A DNA stretch of 64,000 nucleotides, taken from positions 186,001 through 250,000 of the forward strand of contig NZ_LGKP01000012.1 in NCBI RefSeq assembly GCF_001306135.1, read 5' to 3'. A program made the position numbers and the translations under genes. The notes beneath the pieces were generated by a model. It saw only the letters and a list, made by a program, of their open reading frames with translations. It did no database searches and had not been told where the DNA came from. The stretch comes from Herpetosiphon geysericola (GTDB taxonomy: Bacteria; Chloroflexota; Chloroflexia; Chloroflexales; Herpetosiphonaceae). Positions 10,647 through 19,328 of the stretch are shown piece by piece (position 1 is the stretch's first letter; each line of letters starts with the position of its first letter).

Positions 10647-13600
10647 ATGGCTAGTGGAATCTCGCATAGCACATTGAATAACATTCGGCTCAAGCGCATT
10701 CTTCGCTTTGGTATTTTTACCATGATTGTTGGCTTCATCATGGCAATTCCCTATGGCTTAGAAGCAGCGCGCGTGCCATCGTGGCAAAATTACATGAGCA
10801 TCATCAGCATTGTTGTGGCAACAATCGGTGGCTTATGTGCAACGATCGCAGCCAGAAAAGGCTGGCTGATCGCTGGCGCCTATAGTTTAATTATCTCGAT
10901 TGCAGTTGCCACCTTCCCGAGCCAGCTCTTTATTGCTGAGTTTGGCTTTATGCTCTCGATTTTAAATGTCTTCTTTGTGCTGGTCATTTCGATCCAAACC
11001 CTCCCTGAACGCCATATTTTCCCAGTTATCTTGGGGATTATTAGCCTTGGCGTGATTGCAACCTTGCTCAAAACCTTCCTCAATATTCAAGAGGTTCGGG
11101 TTTCGGGCAATCAAGAAATTTATATGCCTGTGATGGCTATCGCAGCCATATTAATCTTGATCTTCTTTGTCTTTCGCGAATTTGGCACGCTCTCAATTCG
11201 CAATAAAATCCTGATCTCGTTTGTGCTCGTAACAACGCTACCAATTGCGATTATCTCGTTTATTACCCTGCGCTCCACCAGAACGTCGCTAACCAACCAA
11301 GCTAATAGTTTGATTTTGGTCAACGCGACCAATATTGCCAACGAAATTGACGATTTTGTCAATCGGAATATCAACCGGGTTAGCGCGCTCTCGCGGATTC
11401 CTGAACTCAGCGAATATTTGCTGGCTGCCGAACAAAACACCTTGGTTCCCGACCAAGATCGCGATACGCGTAACTTGTTTCGCGCAGTTACGACCGAAAA
11501 TAACGATACGCTTTCGGTTGCTTTGCTGAATAATCGTGGCATTGTCTTGGTCGATACGGTTCCAACCAATGTTGGGGTCAATGATTCAGGCCTGTCGTAT
11601 TATCAAAATGCGATTCGGACCGGCCAAAGCATTATTTCGCCAGTTACCTTCGGCAATGATAATTTGCCTTCAATTTATTTCAGTACACCGGTACGCAACC
11701 CGCAAAGCCAAGAAATTATTGGCGTTTTGCGGATTCGCTACAGCGCCAGCATTATTCAATCGTTGGTTGCCCGTAGCAACGACCGCGCTGGGCAAAACTC
11801 ATTCGGGGTCGTGCTTGATGAATATGGCATGCGCATCGCCCAAGGCAGCGAATTAACCCTTTTGTATAAAATTGCCGATACTTTGCAACCAGATGAAATT
11901 AAACGCTTGCAAGACGAACGGCGCTTGCAAAATATCAATGCCTCTAATTTGCTTGTACCATATCCAGCCCTGATTAATGCAATCAAGGGTGTGGTGCTCG
12001 ATCCTCAAAGCACAGGCCAAGTGATCACCATTCCAAGCTCGGTTGCTGAAGAGCAAAAACCAGGCGATCCTGATCCTGAAGGCAACGATATTTATGCCTA
12101 TACAGCGACCAAAACCGTCCAATGGCGGATTCTCTATCACCAAAGCGAATCAACCTTCTTAGCGCCAATTCGCCAATCTGAGCGTTCGACAACCTTGATT
12201 GTGTTGGTGCTCTTGGTTGGGATTAGTATGATCGCTGTCTTTGCAGCGCGCATTCTGACCACGCCAATTGAACGCTTGACCGCTTTTGTTGAGCGCTTTC
12301 GGGCTGGCGATTTATCAACCCGTGCGCCTGTAACCTCGCAAGACGAAATTGGCCAGCTCACGACAACCTTTAATAGTATGTCGGAGCAATTGGCCCAAAC
12401 GCTGCAAGGCTTGCAACAACGCACAATCGCCTTGGAAACCTCCAACGAGGTCAGTCGTCGACTGTCAACGATTTTGAATCCCAACCAATTGGTGTTGGAA
12501 GTGGTTGAGCAGCTCAAAAATACCTTCAACTACTATCACGCTCACATCTACCTGGTTGATCAGCAAACTAATGATTTTGTGATGATGGGTGGTACGGGCC
12601 AAGCAGGTCGCACTTTGTTGGCGCGCAATCACCGCATTCCGCAAGGTCGTGGTTTGGTTGGTCGTGCTGCCAGCACCAAAGATGTGGTCTTGATTCCCGA
12701 CGTAAGCAAAGAAGCAGGCTGGTTGGCCAACCCCTTGTTGCCCGAAACCAAGGCTGAAATTGCTGTGCCAATTATGCTAGGCGATGAAGTGCTCGGCGTA
12801 TTGGACGTGCAAAATGCTGAAGTCAATTCGTTGACCAACGACGACGCAACCCTGCTCCAATCGATTGCAGCCCAAGTGGCGGTTGGGTTGGAAAATGCCC
12901 AATCGTTCGAAGAAATCAATCGCACCCAAGAACTGTTGCGAATTCGCGAACGCGCAATCACCGCCAGTAACGACGGGATTGTAATTGTTGATCCCTATCA
13001 GTTTGATATGCCAGTGGTGTATGTCAACCCAGCCTTCGAGCGGATTACAGGCTATACGCCTGAAGATGTGCTGGGCAAAAACTGCCGTTTCTTGCAAGGC
13101 GATGATAGCGACCAACAAGGCTTGCGCGAATTACGTCATGCGATTCGCGAAAAACGCGCTACTCGCGTGTTGTTGCGCAACTATCGCAAAGATGGCACGT
13201 TGTTCTGGAACGAACTCGACATCAACCCAGTTTTTGATGAAAATGGCGAGTTGATCAACTTTATCGGCGTTCAGCAAGATGTCAGCGAGCGGGTCGAGGC
13301 TCAACAAGCCTTGCAAGAATCCTTGGGCTTCCAGCAAACCATGCTCGATAGCGCCAACTATATGATTATTGCAACCTCGCTCGATGGCAAAATTACCTCG
13401 TTCAACCGCACTGCTGAGCAAATGCTTGGTTACGAGGCTCACGAAGTGATTGGTAAGACTCTGGTTGAATTAGCTAATGACCCTGAAGAAGTTGAGCAAT
13501 TTTCCAATCAATTGCGCAAGCAAACAGGAATGACCTTGAGCAAACACGATGCCTTGGTCTATGATGCACAGCGCGGACGGCCATCAAACACTGAATGGAC

Positions 13601-16280
13601 GTATGTGGCCCGTGATGGTCGGCGCTTCCCCGTCTTGCTGTCGATTACGGCGTTGCGCGACCGCCAAGGCGAAGTAACTGGCTACTTGAAAATTGCCAAC
13701 GATATTAGCGCAGCCAAGCAGCAACAACAAGCCTTACGCGATAGTGAAACCCGTTATCGCTCGCTGGCTGAATCATCACGCGATTTGGTCTTCATCTTCG
13801 ACCGTGAGAATCGCTTGCAATATATCAACGATTTTGCGGCTGGGATTTTCGACAAGAAACCTGATGACTTGGTTGGCTTGCTTGATGAGCAAATTTTCTT
13901 GCCTTCAACGGTTGAAGCGCGCCGCGAAGATGCAGAAATTATTTTCAATACTGGCCAGAGCCTTACTCGTGAATCAATGTTTACCTTGAGTGGCGAGGAA
14001 ACGTGGTTCGACTTTCAGTTGCTGCCAATTCTTGATGATCAAACCAACAGCCCAGAATTGATTATGAGTGTTGGCCGCAACATTACCGACCGTAAGCGCG
14101 ACGAACAAGAACGTGAACAAACCTTGCTCGAAATTGATCGCCAACGCCGAACGCTGCAAGGTATTCTCGAAGCCTTGCCGGTGGGTGTGGTGGTCTATAA
14201 CGCACAGTTTGAAATGCAACTGCGTAACCAAAGCGCTGAATTAATCGTCGGCCAACCATTGGGTGACGTTGATTCCGAGCAGTTGGAATCGATTAGTGAG
14301 GCTTATAAACTGTTTATTCCTGGCACGGATACACCATTTGATCCTAACATGATTCCTGTGTTCCGCGCTTTGAAGCATGGCGAGCGGGGCCAAGCTGAAT
14401 TTGATATACGCCACGCTGATGGCCGCAGCTTTACAGTGTTGGCCAGCGGTGCACCAGTGTTCAACAACGAAGGCCAAGTTATTAGCGGCATTGCCTTGCT
14501 GCAAGATATTACTGACCGCAAGCTGAACGAACAAGAACGTGAACGCTTGTTGCAAGCAACAATTGAACAAGAACGCTTGCTCACAGCGATTCTCGATAAC
14601 ATGCCGATTGGTGTGTACGTGGTCAATAACAAGGGTGTCAGCCAGTTGATCAACCGCTCGACGATGGAAATCTTGGGCGTAGCTGGCCAGATGGGCGCTG
14701 CGGTCTTAGACCAAGCAGACTTGCCACGACCGAAGTTCTTGCATGAATCCACCGATAAAGAATTGGAAGTGCATGAAACTGGCTTGTTCAAAGCCCTAAG
14801 CAGCAAAAAAGTAACTCACGAGTTGGTTGATGTGCTGCGCTTTGATGGCAGTCGGGTTTCTGTCGATTCAACCTCGGTGCCAATGTTCGACGAGAACCAA
14901 CAATTAACTGGCGTGCTTTCGCTGATTCAAGATGTGACTGAACAACGTAACGCTCAGCGCGAGCGTGAACAACTGCTGACCCAAGTGGAATATCGCGCAC
15001 TCGAACTCGAAACCGTGGCCCAGGTCAGTACCTCGGCGGCTGGTCTGTTGAATGTGGAAGAATTGCTGCAAACGGTGGTTGATCTGACCAAACATCGATT
15101 CGGCCTTTACCACGCTCACATCTATTTGTACAACCCTGATGACCAACAATTTGAATTGGCCTTCGGTGCTGGCGAAATTGGCCGCACCATGGTCAAGGAA
15201 GGTCGCACGATTCCATTAGATCGCGAGCAATCGCTGGTGGCGCAAGCTGGTCGGGCACGCCGCTCAATTATTGAAAATGATGTGCGTTCAAACCCAAGCT
15301 TCTTGCCGCACCCACTCTTGCCCGAAACCCGCGCTGAAATGGCCACGCCGCTGATCGCTGGCTCGATGCTCTTGGGTGTGCTCGATATTCAATCAGACAA
15401 AGACCATATCTTTACTGATGATGACCGCAAGATTCAAACGACCTTGGCCAGCCAAATTGCGATTGCTTTGCAAAATGCGCGCTTGTTCGTGGAGCAAACC
15501 GCCACAATGCAGCGCTTGCAAGAGCTTGACCAATTGAAATCCGCCTTCTTGGCCAATATGTCGCACGAATTGCGCACGCCGCTCAACTCGATCCTTGGCT
15601 TTACCGAGGTTATTCTCGAAGGTATCAACGGGCCAATCAACGACCTGATTCATAATGACTTGAGCATTATTCATCGTAACGGTCGCCACTTGCTCAACTT
15701 GATCAACGACATTTTGGATATGGCGAAGATCGAATCAGGCAAGCTGACCTTGTTCCGCGAAACTTTCGATGTAGTTGAAGTGTTGCACGAGGTTGCCAGC
15801 ACGGTTGGGCCATTAGCCACCCAGAAACATCTGGAACTGAAGGTCGATATTGAGCCGCAGCTCAAATTGCCAGTCTATGCTGACCGTTTCCGCATCCGCC
15901 AAGTATTATTGAACATCGTAGGCAATGCTTTGAAATTTACCGAGCAAGGTTCGGTGATAATAGGCATTGACACAACGCCAACGACCCGTATGATTAAAAT
16001 CCAAGATACAGGCATTGGGATTCCGCTGGATAATCAAGATACGATTTTCATGGAATTCCATCAGGTTGACAATTCGACAACCCGCAAGGCGGGCGGTACG
16101 GGCTTAGGCTTACCAATTAGTCGCCACTTGGTAGAAATGCATGGCGGCAAACTTTCAATGGTCAGTACTGGCAATCCTGGTGAAGGCTCGCTCTTCACAA
16201 TTGAATTGCCAATCAACGCCAGCGAAGATGAAATTGATCCTAACGAAGCGCCAGCCAATCAGCCTATATCTGTAGAGTAA
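10647..16280 (+). CDS. Giant membrane sensor histidine kinase with Cache, HAMP, two GAF, LOV and multiple PAS domains
   Basis: 1877 residues. In order: five or six N-terminal membrane helices (20-175), helix 191-212, an extracellular Cache-like region (about 215-500), helix about 515-536, HAMP (535-590), GAF1 (600-755), a LOV domain (770-895), four more PAS domains (900-1440), GAF2 (1456-1620), HisKA with MSHELRTPLNSILGF (H1640), and HATPase_c with NIVGNALKF, DTGIGIP and GGTGLGLPISRH. The LOV domain has GKNCRFLQG with the photoactive Cys (C813), then NYRKDGTLFWNELDINPV and FIGVQQDV, the flavin-contact residues. The two GAF domains resemble each other (YHAHIYL...HPLLPETRAEM type), suggesting internal duplication. 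No receiver domain is attached, so phosphate should pass to the regulators downstream. Confidence 0.93.
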   Translation: MASGISHSTLNNIRLKRILRFGIFTMIVGFIMAIPYGLEAARVPSWQNYMSIISIVVATIGGLCATIAARKGWLIAGAYSLIISIAVATFPSQLFIAEFGFMLSILNVFFVLVISIQTLPERHIFPVILGIISLGVIATLLKTFLNIQEVRVSGNQEIYMPVMAIAAILILIFFVFREFGTLSIRNKILISFVLVTTLPIAIISFITLRSTRTSLTNQANSLILVNATNIANEIDDFVNRNINRVSALSRIPELSEYLLAAEQNTLVPDQDRDTRNLFRAVTTENNDTLSVALLNNRGIVLVDTVPTNVGVNDSGLSYYQNAIRTGQSIISPVTFGNDNLPSIYFSTPVRNPQSQEIIGVLRIRYSASIIQSLVARSNDRAGQNSFGVVLDEYGMRIAQGSELTLLYKIADTLQPDEIKRLQDERRLQNINASNLLVPYPALINAIKGVVLDPQSTGQVITIPSSVAEEQKPGDPDPEGNDIYAYTATKTVQWRILYHQSESTFLAPIRQSERSTTLIVLVLLVGISMIAVFAARILTTPIERLTAFVERFRAGDLSTRAPVTSQDEIGQLTTTFNSMSEQLAQTLQGLQQRTIALETSNEVSRRLSTILNPNQLVLEVVEQLKNTFNYYHAHIYLVDQQTNDFVMMGGTGQAGRTLLARNHRIPQGRGLVGRAASTKDVVLIPDVSKEAGWLANPLLPETKAEIAVPIMLGDEVLGVLDVQNAEVNSLTNDDATLLQSIAAQVAVGLENAQSFEEINRTQELLRIRERAITASNDGIVIVDPYQFDMPVVYVNPAFERITGYTPEDVLGKNCRFLQGDDSDQQGLRELRHAIREKRATRVLLRNYRKDGTLFWNELDINPVFDENGELINFIGVQQDVSERVEAQQALQESLGFQQTMLDSANYMIIATSLDGKITSFNRTAEQMLGYEAHEVIGKTLVELANDPEEVEQFSNQLRKQTGMTLSKHDALVYDAQRGRPSNTEWTYVARDGRRFPVLLSITALRDRQGEVTGYLKIANDISAAKQQQQALRDSETRYRSLAESSRDLVFIFDRENRLQYINDFAAGIFDKKPDDLVGLLDEQIFLPSTVEARREDAEIIFNTGQSLTRESMFTLSGEETWFDFQLLPILDDQTNSPELIMSVGRNITDRKRDEQEREQTLLEIDRQRRTLQGILEALPVGVVVYNAQFEMQLRNQSAELIVGQPLGDVDSEQLESISEAYKLFIPGTDTPFDPNMIPVFRALKHGERGQAEFDIRHADGRSFTVLASGAPVFNNEGQVISGIALLQDITDRKLNEQERERLLQATIEQERLLTAILDNMPIGVYVVNNKGVSQLINRSTMEILGVAGQMGAAVLDQADLPRPKFLHESTDKELEVHETGLFKALSSKKVTHELVDVLRFDGSRVSVDSTSVPMFDENQQLTGVLSLIQDVTEQRNAQREREQLLTQVEYRALELETVAQVSTSAAGLLNVEELLQTVVDLTKHRFGLYHAHIYLYNPDDQQFELAFGAGEIGRTMVKEGRTIPLDREQSLVAQAGRARRSIIENDVRSNPSFLPHPLLPETRAEMATPLIAGSMLLGVLDIQSDKDHIFTDDDRKIQTTLASQIAIALQNARLFVEQTATMQRLQELDQLKSAFLANMSHELRTPLNSILGFTEVILEGINGPINDLIHNDLSIIHRNGRHLLNLINDILDMAKIESGKLTLFRETFDVVEVLHEVASTVGPLATQKHLELKVDIEPQLKLPVYADRFRIRQVLLNIVGNALKFTEQGSVIIGIDTTPTTRMIKIQDTGIGIPLDNQDTIFMEFHQVDNSTTRKAGGTGLGLPISRHLVEMHGGKLSMVSTGNPGEGSLFTIELPINASEDEIDPNEAPANQPISVE

Positions 16281-16329: not shown

Positions 16330-17967
16330 ATGACAGATTTAGTTTGCCAAAACTGTGGCCATATTCAGCCATACACCTTTCGTAGCTCGAATAGCTGTGC
16401 CCAATGCGCGAATGATTGGCTTGAAACTCATTACGATTATGCAAGTTTTCGCGAGTTGGTGAGCAATCAGCAACTAACTGGCCAGACGTTATGGCGCTAT
16501 GCTAGCGTCTTGCCAGTGCCTGCGCCAAGCTCGCCAACCTATGTTGGCGGCACGCCCTTGGTGCATGCCCACCGTTTTGGCGGCTTGTTGGGCTTGCCCC
16601 GCTTGTACATCAAAGATGAGCGTTATAGCCCAACCAACTCGTTTAAAGATCGGCAGGCGGCGCTGGCAGTGGCGGCCTTGGTTGCCAATAACATTCGCGA
16701 ATGCGTGATTGCCTCGACTGGCAATGCAGCAGTGGCCTATGCAGCGGCCTGTGCAGCAGCAGGCATCAAACTCTGGGTCTTTATGACCAGCGTTGTGCCA
16801 GAGGCTAAATTGCGCGAAGCAGCCTTGTTTGGGGCCGAGGTGATCAAAGTGAGTGGCAATTATGATCAAACCAAGCAGATTGCCGCTGATTTTGCCCAAA
16901 ACCGCAATATTATCTACGACCGTGGGGCCAATAGCATTCCAGCCCGCGAAGCCATGAAAACGATTAGCTACGAGATTTGTGAGCAACTTGGCTGGCAAGC
17001 GCCCGATTGGTATATTCAGGCGGTGAGCGGCGGCCTAGGGCCGTTAGGCGTGTATCATGGCTTTGCAGAATTGCATGCCATGGGCTTGACCCAGCGGGTG
17101 CCGCAAACTGCGATCATTCAAGCTGATGGCTGCTCGCCAATGGTGCAAGCGTTTCATGCAGGCAAATCGGTGGCCGAAAAAGTAGTGCCAAACACCAGAA
17201 TCGCAATTCTTTCGACTGGCGATCCTGGCAAAATCTATACGCGGCTCTGGCATCGCATCCAAACTTCTGGCGGCACGATGGAAGCGGTGACCGATGAAGA
17301 AGCGTTTAGTGCTATGCGCTTGTTGGCCCGCACCGAAGGTATTTCGGTCGAGCCGGCAACGGCGGTGGCGTTTGCTGGTCTGCAAAAGATGGTGGCCCAA
17401 GGCCAAGTTAACCCAGAAGAACTAATTGTGGTAAATTGTACCGGACACACTTTTCCGGTCGATAAGCATGTGCTCAACGATCAATGGCACATCGATGTGC
17501 ATGTCAGCGATACGCAGCAATCAGCGCCTCAAGAAGGCCTCCAGGCAGCGCTTGAGCAATTGAACGAAAAAGCAACAACGGTGTTGTTGATTGATGATAA
17601 TCCTGACGATGCGCAGCTTGTGCAGCGAATTCTTGAGCGCCGCAAAGCCTATCGGGTCTATAGGGCCAACGATGGTGCTGATGGCGTGCGCCAAGCAATT
17701 GAGCGTTTGCCCGATGCAATCGTGATGGATTTAATGATGCCCAACATGGATGGGTTTCAGGTGATGAGCACCTTGCGCCAGCACCCTAAAACCCGTGATA
17801 TTCCGATTATTGTGGTGAGCGCTAAGGATATTACGCCCGATGAACGCCATCATTTAGCCACCCATACCCGTGCTGTGTATCAAAAGGGCTCACTTTCACC
17901 GGTTGCCTTTGTCGAACAGGTTGTGAGTGTCATTGAACACAAAGAGCGTGATAGTGAGGACCAATGA
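16330..17967 (+). CDS. Threonine-synthase-like PLP enzyme fused to a C-terminal response-regulator receiver domain
   Basis: 545 residues. Residues 1-35 form a CxxC...CxxC zinc ribbon (LVCQNCG, SCAQCAN). Residues 60-395 are a fold-type-II PLP enzyme with the cofactor Lys in NSFKDRQA (K106), ASTGNAAVAYA and the glycine loop QAVSGGLGPLGVYHG, closest to threonine synthase (O-phosphohomoserine to threonine). Residues about 418-535 are a complete receiver: LLIDDNPDD, phospho-acceptor in IVMDLMMPNMDG (D467), Ser in VVSAKD, Lys in YQKGS. The fusion is continuous; no stop or frameshift separates the parts. It starts 49 bases after the kinase gene and overlaps the next regulator by four bases, implying an operon. 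The enzymatic substrate is inferred only from family. Confidence 0.88.
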   Translation: MTDLVCQNCGHIQPYTFRSSNSCAQCANDWLETHYDYASFRELVSNQQLTGQTLWRYASVLPVPAPSSPTYVGGTPLVHAHRFGGLLGLPRLYIKDERYSPTNSFKDRQAALAVAALVANNIRECVIASTGNAAVAYAAACAAAGIKLWVFMTSVVPEAKLREAALFGAEVIKVSGNYDQTKQIAADFAQNRNIIYDRGANSIPAREAMKTISYEICEQLGWQAPDWYIQAVSGGLGPLGVYHGFAELHAMGLTQRVPQTAIIQADGCSPMVQAFHAGKSVAEKVVPNTRIAILSTGDPGKIYTRLWHRIQTSGGTMEAVTDEEAFSAMRLLARTEGISVEPATAVAFAGLQKMVAQGQVNPEELIVVNCTGHTFPVDKHVLNDQWHIDVHVSDTQQSAPQEGLQAALEQLNEKATTVLLIDDNPDDAQLVQRILERRKAYRVYRANDGADGVRQAIERLPDAIVMDLMMPNMDGFQVMSTLRQHPKTRDIPIIVVSAKDITPDERHHLATHTRAVYQKGSLSPVAFVEQVVSVIEHKERDSEDQ

Positions 17968-18421: not shown

Positions 18422-18814
18422 TTAGCTATACCATGGCTTGGATTGATTGGAACCGGCGAGCCAGAGTTTGACCTTCTCCATTAATGACATAACGTCGAAG
18501 GGCTTGCTGACATAATCAGTCCAGTCGGGGGTCATCAATTGCTTGACTTCGCCAGGGCTGCAACTCGCAGTTAACGCTACAATCGGGATATGAGCCAAGT
18601 GTGGGCTAGCTTTGACCGTTCGGCAGACCGTCCAGCCATCCATGCGTGGCAAATTCAAATCAAGCAATACAAGGTCTGGTTGGCTCTTTTGAATAGCTTC
18701 CAGGGCTTCGACCCCATCACGAGCCATCTCGGTTGTATAACCAGACCGTTGGAGCATTATTCCTAAAAGCTGACGGTTGTCAGGCATATCATCAACAACT
18801 AAGATGGTTGGCAT
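18422..18814 (-). CDS. Single-domain response regulator (receiver only)
   Basis: 130 residues from the ATG at 18814, which has AGGAG eight bases upstream; an in-frame start at 18859 would add 15 unrelated residues. Receiver motifs: ILVVDDMPDNRQLLGIML, phospho-acceptor in LVLLDLNLPRMDGWTV, Thr in VALTASCSPGE, Lys in YVSKPFDVMSL. It faces the kinase operon tail to tail. The promoter side contains an inverted repeat TACTGTAA (18863-18870) / TTACAGTA (18893-18900). Confidence 0.92.
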   Translation of the reverse strand: MPTILVVDDMPDNRQLLGIMLQRSGYTTEMARDGVEALEAIQKSQPDLVLLDLNLPRMDGWTVCRTVKASPHLAHIPIVALTASCSPGEVKQLMTPDWTDYVSKPFDVMSLMEKVKLWLAGSNQSKPWYS

Positions 18815-19328
18815 ATGGGTATCTCCTAAAATTGTACCTTCTGATCTGCTCGTATCCAAATGTACTGTAACAATCCAACCTTACTAGCTAATTTACAGTA
18901 GGACTCGTGGGCGATTGCATGGTTTGTTATGGAATGCTTGCGCCAATGAAGTGGATTAACAAGTGATGGTTGTTTAATTAGTAAAAGTATATGCAATTTC
19001 TTGCATACATGCCATGGTTCAATAGTCCGTAGCCGCTGTGGAAGGAAAGGGCTAGTTTTGCGGCGTGCGACCTCACTCCAGAGGGTGACATAGGCCTTAA
19101 CGGAGTTTGAGCTATGCGTTAGCTGATGGCCTAGGGATTGGGATATTTGCCAATCATCAGGCTGCCTGATATACTCAATGCGTCCTCAGTGTACCGTGGG
19201 TTTGTACTCCACGCGGCAACAAGCTGCGTGCATGCATTCCAAAACAAACGCTAAATTCTGCAAATCAATGAAAGGGAGTACGGTTGACGAGCGGCGTTTA
19301 ACGGCTGCTTATCACCGTAAAATGCAGT
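18815..19328. other. 514-base spacer with several potential RNA hairpins
   Basis: No convincing protein gene. The left end carries the inverted repeat TACTGTAA-N22-TTACAGTA. Between about 19030 and 19240 there are nested complementary segments: GCCGC...GCGGC, AGGCCTTAACG...CGTTA...GGCCT, GATTGG...CCAATC, and the tight hairpin ATCAGG-CTG-CCTGAT. No known riboswitch or ncRNA consensus (cobalamin, c-di-GMP, SAM, RNase P, 6S) was recognised. It precedes the nucleotide-sugar pyrophosphorylase gene. Confidence 0.4.

Follow-up and report, generated by a model that had tools for sequence, protein, structure and literature searches.

Within the window analysed here, by which we mean the whole stretch of 64,000 nucleotides of Herpetosiphon geysericola DNA, a threonine-synthase-like PLP enzyme and a complete response-regulator receiver are encoded as a single protein, and this fusion recurs in other members of the phylum in the company of an adjacent sensor histidine kinase. 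Read from the sequences, the conservation of the fusion together with a sensor kinase suggests that a metabolic reaction may be placed under the direct control of a phosphate signal in many Chloroflexota. We consider it probable, though by no means assured, that the protein is a response regulator with an amino-acid-type PLP enzyme as its output, in which the adjacent kinase would control a working enzyme. Most characterised response regulators target DNA, partner proteins or cyclic dinucleotides, and a widespread, operon-conserved PLP-enzyme output would mean that histidine kinases control primary metabolism post-translationally.

Architecture of the fusion gene

An earlier note on this DNA had described one continuous frame that joins the enzyme to an intact receiver, and this description is borne out. 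Positions 16330-17967 of the forward strand form a single open frame of 545 residues, with an ATG at 16330 and the stop at 17967, in which Pfam recognises both PALP and Response_reg (PF00072; residues 418-509, E 1.6e-18). The residues K106, D467, S497 and K519 all lie where that note had placed them and, with D423 also present, the receiver of the window protein is complete. The enzyme portion is a fold-type-II PLP domain that retains its Schiff-base lysine, on the combined evidence of PF00291, K106 and a fold match to 1uim and 2c2b. The predicted structure (mean pLDDT 76, pTM 0.66) gives both domains, with pLDDT below 50 in the region of the linker (residues 374-414). The features of the operon are collected in Table 1.

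Table 1. Features of the fusion operon, in positions of the window.
Feature	Position	Strand	Basis
Fusion gene, 545 aa: zinc ribbon, PLP enzyme, linker and receiver	16330..17967	+	ORF, Pfam, phylum search, alignment
Zinc-ribbon cysteines C6, C9, C23, C26	16345..16407	+	Zinc ribbon by inspection; invariant in 95/95 distinct fusions
PALP domain, residues 71-372, with K106 as Schiff-base lysine	16540..17445	+	Pfam PF00291, E 2.5e-73; K106 invariant; predicted fold
Linker, residues 384-417	17479..17580	+	Identity medians versus relatives; low model confidence at 374-414
Receiver domain, residues 418-535, with D467 as phospho-acceptor	17581..17934	+	Pfam PF00072; D423, D467, K519 invariant, S/T at 497
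Histidine kinase, 1877 aa: dCache_1, HAMP, GAF, PAS, HisKA, HATPase_c	10647..16280	+	Pfam; lies 49 nt upstream of the fusion gene
Stand-alone receiver, 126 aa	17964..18344	+	Pfam PF00072; overlaps the fusion gene by 4 nt

Distribution of the fusion and reality of the joint

A search of 399 Chloroflexota genomes (E <= 1e-60, with the best three first-look candidates per genome scored) found the fusion in 49 of them, as two fused subfamilies. Members of subfamily A are 58-67% identical to the window protein, apart from the Herpetosiphon copies, which are 96-99% identical to it and include the proteins of three named species; members of subfamily B are 43-52% identical. The 49 genomes hold 65 matches of at least 489 bits, all of which extend beyond query residue 525, and the next match below these, at 237 bits, is an unfused protein that ends at query residue 398. 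With the best three candidates scored in each of the 399 genomes, no unfused member of the fused subfamily was seen, and from its sequences the subfamily looks to be always fused in the genomes sampled.

The earlier note had allowed for related genomes that encode two separate proteins; the opposite is seen, in that all 65 strong matches cover both domains. One stop inside the aligned stretch is reported for 16 of the 65; eight of these were examined as loci, and there the stop falls behind the receiver, the frame being open up to query residue 535-538. In a contig scan of the best 80 of 147 relatives, the fused ORF stays in one frame to at least query residue 519 at every one of the 80 loci, and the view that the joint carries no stop or frameshift thus holds for the relatives as well. 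Together, the 80 in-frame loci and the 65 spanning matches exclude a sequencing error, a frameshift or a chance joint.

All 14 non-Herpetosiphon genomes in which the 399-genome search found A also carry B, and around one carrier genome a match is present in 23 of 41 genomes, the carrier included (E <= 1e-100). Within the window's own class, matches at E <= 1e-80 are limited to its own genus (6 of the 158 genomes searched), a presence that fits either an acquisition of the fusion by Herpetosiphon from Anaerolineae or its repeated loss; between these two the tree of fusion relatives does not choose. The phylum is named for 79 of the 91 distinct tree rows, all of them Chloroflexota, and the other 12, the window included, carry no phylum. 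In the plasmid collection eight records gave partial matches, to the enzyme domain only, and none of them covers 80%. One record titled Herpetosiphon sp. (MAG IMS_BF, locus L102) is only 63% identical to the window protein and has an operon that resembles the Anaerolineae loci; it is possibly mislabelled or a mixed bin.

Conservation of residues and linker

Conservation was assessed over 95 distinct fused proteins, 82 from A and 13 from B. C6, C9, C23, C26, K106, D423, D467 and K519 are invariant throughout, position 497 is S or T and position 422 is D or E in all 95, and the response-regulator receiver signature (acidic pair, phospho-Asp, S/T, Lys) is present in every fusion. The enzyme also retains its ASTGN loop and its T/S-G-H region. 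For the 76 non-Herpetosiphon proteins of A, the linker (residues 384-417) has a median identity of 65% to that of the window protein, somewhat below PALP at 70% and above the receiver at 57%; for the 13 B proteins the linker identity is 32%.

The adjacent kinase and stand-alone receiver

Neighbourhoods were counted over 91 distinct loci (78 A and 13 B), with ORF starts chosen mechanically. An ORF that matches the histidine kinase core of the window lies directly upstream of the fusion, or overlaps it, on the same strand at 78/78 A loci and 10/13 B loci; the fusion itself, tabulated across genomes as the earlier note had proposed, is present in 49 of 399 Chloroflexota genomes. Among 20 fetched B loci, a set that overlaps the 13, a kinase adjoins the fusion in 18. 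In A, a median of 2 nt separates the kinase gene from the fusion gene (70 pairs within narrower limits). On the evidence of position, the neighbouring histidine kinase may be regarded as the cognate kinase of the fusion. Its input domains (dCache, GAF, PAS) differ between loci, with dCache present or absent in the same protein.

A stand-alone receiver ORF follows the fusion at 75 of the 78 A loci and at 5 of the 13 B loci, and of the three A exceptions two (L046 and L097) have it by tblastn and the third (L078) lies at a contig end. D54 and K106 of this small receiver are invariant in 80/80 aligned relatives. The core of the window kinase is 52-61% identical to the kinases beside A fusions outside Herpetosiphon, whereas no paralogue in the same genome exceeds 48%, and since its identity to the fusion-linked kinases is the higher, the kinase seems to travel with the fusion. 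For the small receiver, identity to paralogues of its own genome does not exceed 50% and identity to the operon copies is mostly 57-66%; where two such genes stand in tandem, one of them or both give lower values, of 45-56%. Judged by these identities, kinase, fusion and small receiver seem to descend as a unit. The three adjacent genes offer a simple test system, two of them being of a size that can be expressed routinely.

Within its own genome, the fused receiver is closest to the receivers that stand last in hybrid kinases (40% identity over 131 residues, part of the linker included, for that of L003, and 37% over 119 residues for that of L004). Plausibly, the PLP enzyme acquired its receiver from the end of such a hybrid kinase. 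Another stand-alone receiver gene lies convergent with the operon at 18422-18859 on the reverse strand (Response_reg, E 3.6e-27); it is also found at the Herpetosiphon loci L026-L028, and the neighbour lists of the other loci do not contain it.

Metabolic neighbour genes

An unfused threonine-synthase-like gene stands downstream of the fusion on the same strand at 32 of 80 loci (77 A, 3 B), 258-826 nt after it; where at least 2 kb of downstream sequence is available (68 loci, 65 A and 3 B), it is present at 29 and absent at 39. Three of these adjacent synthases were tested and score 563-575 bits on NF006050, which has a cut-off of 303. For B, the neighbourhood sample comprised 20 hand-picked matches of the 45 found in the 399-genome search. 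An EamA-family transporter is encoded directly downstream in 13 of these 20 loci and nearby in two more, once on the opposite strand, and none was seen in the remaining five. All four transporters checked by Pfam match PF00892, and the one tested on TIGR00950 (amino-acid/amine transporter) scores 62.8, far below the cut-off of 230.2. EamA-family proteins include amino-acid exporters. The adjacent unfused synthase is missing in Herpetosiphon, the window locus included, and no neighbouring transporter was found at the window locus either. At one locus (L159, 7661-9145) a PAS-GAF-STAS protein is encoded between the fusion and the EamA transporter, and may be a component of a partner switch.

Identity of the enzyme domain

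The earlier note had termed the enzyme threonine-synthase-like, and this likeness stands with respect to fold type II, K106 and the fold match; as a name for the fused enzyme, 'threonine synthase' is not established by the sequences. The predicted structure matches the plant threonine synthase 2c2b (Z 40.5), the cysteate synthase 9k3c (Z 39.1) and, at Z about 32-34, bacterial threonine synthases. On TIGR00260, with a cut-off of 167.1, the window protein scores 170.2, two other fusions score 159.6 (L052) and 160.3 (L121), and other fusions fall on both sides; on NF006050, the three fusions tested score 239, 242 and 250, all below its cut-off. A cysteate synthase was considered and rejected, with a score of 131.3 on TIGR03844 below the equivalog cut-off of 324.9.

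Thermus position 160, which we take to be the arginine that binds the substrate phosphate, is R in 4/4 solved enzymes, in 16/16 adjacent synthases and in the window genome's own ThrC, and is A, S, G or C in 95/95 fusions. None of the 20 fetched unfused relatives has R there either (Y in 19 and M in one, while 19 of them carry an arginine three residues before it), although L138, which belongs to these 20, reaches 277 bits on TIGR00260, so that R160 may not define the family. R198 is kept in 82/82 A proteins, as is R or K at 206, and B keeps neither throughout. The residue equivalent to Thermus Asn 188 of the phosphate loop is G in 21/21 fused rows and in 16/16 adjacent synthases, and as such does not separate the two groups.

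Other synthases were sought in 44 of the 49 genomes with the fusion, the other five being further Herpetosiphon. In 43 of the 44, a gene other than the fusion exceeds the TIGR00260 cut-off, and the remaining genome (G262) has one at 165.1 against 167.1; with a further match in all 44, the fusion is never the only synthase candidate. The ordinary ThrC of Herpetosiphon sits elsewhere in the genome and scores 323.7 bits on TIGR00260. Homoserine kinase (TIGR00191) is present in 34 of the 44 genomes and not in the window's own, and is uninformative on the pathway. In the tree, the 21 fused rows form one clade on a long stem (SH-aLRT 100) and stand clear of both unfused kinds. Since the long branches adjoin one another, as the program itself cautions, the sister group that the tree gives the fused clade is tentative. 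An origin of the fusion by recent tandem duplication of the adjacent synthase is unsupported, as the 16 synthases and the 21 fusions are separate, fully supported long-stem groups.

Proposed mechanism and alternative readings

In the reading that we prefer, the kinase would sense a signal through its variable Cache, PAS and GAF domains and would pass phosphate to D467 of the fusion and also onto D54 in the small receiver, perhaps a competing target or a phosphate sink. Phosphorylation would then be relayed through the linker, which is conserved within A, and would alter the activity or the assembly of the PLP enzyme. The retained PLP lysine and the metabolic neighbours favour a PLP domain that is an active enzyme. 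Its reaction is likely to form or degrade an amino acid close to threonine metabolism, although the active site is unlike those of the solved threonine synthases; the product would be an amino acid or a near relative of one, presumably exported in B. A threonine synthase with threonine-deaminase activity is reported in PMC12172450, and provides a lead on possible substrates. We would offer only as a tentative extension that this two-component system acts directly neither through transcription nor through a second messenger, its output being instead the controlled synthesis of an amino-acid-type metabolite, which B would also export; the PLP enzyme would then be of new specificity, and the product may signal between cells.

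A different reading takes the protein as a true threonine synthase acting on O-phosphohomoserine, a second isozyme controlled by the kinase while the ordinary one provides the basal supply. The nearest solved relatives are indeed threonine synthases, the window protein is just above the TIGR00260 cut-off (170.2 vs 167.1) along with several other fusions, and an unfused synthase-like gene follows on the same strand at 29/68 loci. Position 160 is not arginine in any of the 95 fusions and B does not keep R198 or R206 throughout, whereas in A these two positions (R198 and R/K206, 82/82 each) could bind phosphate instead, and the absence of R160 is not decisive when it is shared by 20/20 fetched unfused relatives, L138 at 277 among them. 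L052 and L121 score below the TIGR00260 cut-off, the three tested fusions score below that of NF006050, and the fused clade stands on its long stem apart from both unfused kinds. On balance, we judge a kinase-controlled isozyme to be unlikely.

It is also conceivable that the PLP domain is a sensor, which would bind an amino acid or phospho-amino acid and thereby gate phosphorylation of the receiver, with the protein reporting the level of a metabolite to the kinase and the stand-alone receiver. The protein keeps its PLP lysine, its ASTGN loop and its T/S-G-H region, which goes beyond what a sensor would need, and the transporter and synthase neighbours suggest flux, so that we hold this reading to be quite improbable, even with a second receiver, a possible output carrier, adjoining nearly all A loci, a linker that within A comes close to the enzyme domain in conservation, and another synthase over the cut-off in 43/44 genomes. 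A purely structural receiver, one that serves to build oligomers in the manner of the receiver-derived wing of acid-induced decarboxylases, has a precedent in the receiver-like domain known on PLP decarboxylases (PMC8503589); with D423, D467 and K519 invariant, S or T at 497 in 95/95 and a kinase adjoining 78/78 A loci, we give it very little credence.

Comparison with known systems

Receivers on standard metabolic enzymes are known in bacteria and archaea, the archaeal cases being narrowly distributed (PMC5847659). The response regulators with enzymatic output in that source, such as KaiC-REC and the BcsA-like glycosyltransferase-REC, likewise combine an intact receiver with a metabolic-type enzyme and are thought to be environmentally controlled. 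Compared with the cases in PMC5847659, the present fusion has a fold-type-II PLP enzyme, spans many families of one phylum where the archaeal cases are at family or genus level, and comes with a conserved adjacent kinase and, in A, with a second receiver. The rarity that the earlier note had claimed for a receiver on an amino-acid biosynthetic enzyme is to be qualified, as the fusion recurs across Chloroflexota and receivers on metabolic enzymes are published (PMC5847659). In short, the logic of the fusion is ordinary, and what is unusual about it is the kind of enzyme, how widely it is spread and how fixed its neighbourhood is. The listings of the literature searches contain no publication on a threonine-synthase-receiver fusion; Galperin's two output-domain surveys might contain one.

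With ThrC (TIGR00260, NF006050; 1uim, 2c2b) the fusion shares the fold, the Schiff-base lysine and the ASTGN loop, and its four-cysteine N-terminus is as in the adjacent NF006050-type synthases. Unlike ThrC, it has TGHTFPVEKH or a similar stretch where the GLK ending stands, and it carries the receiver; unlike the solved ThrC enzymes, it is without the arginine at Thermus position 160 in 95/95 proteins. The cysteate synthase CapA2 (9k3c) is alike in fold over 370 residues (Z 39.1), but differs in sequence (23% identity, TIGR03844 131 vs a cut-off of 325) and in the receiver attached to the fusion. Caution is due in naming, as similarity alone is insufficient to call these fusions threonine synthase. 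The AAT fold is fold type I. The winged lysine/arginine/ornithine decarboxylases resemble the fusion in pairing a PLP enzyme with a receiver-type domain, but theirs is an AAT fold with an N-terminal receiver-like wing (PMC8503589), whereas the fusion has fold type II and a complete C-terminal receiver. Assignment to the winged AAT-fold decarboxylases was accordingly rejected, the fusion being a PALP domain with its receiver at the C-terminus.

Variation among the B loci

Some B fusions carry two receivers in tandem at the C-terminus, as in L105, in which Pfam finds two Response_reg matches; by reading, the fusions of L103, L104, L120 and L122 have a second C-terminal receiver as well. The kinase of B is a hybrid with receivers of its own in the two whole or partial kinases that were scanned (L121 and L163). 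Upstream of the kinase in L163 is a gene for a ParA/MinD-like ATPase (1996-2784; Pfam AAA_31), and genes of the same size occupy this position at other B loci, with a similar-looking one, by reading, at the A locus L029 (1873-2853). At a further B locus, the gene after the fusion (L158, 4739-5989, identical with L127, 239-1489) encodes its receiver in one protein with the core of a histidine kinase (Response_reg, HisKA, HATPase_c).
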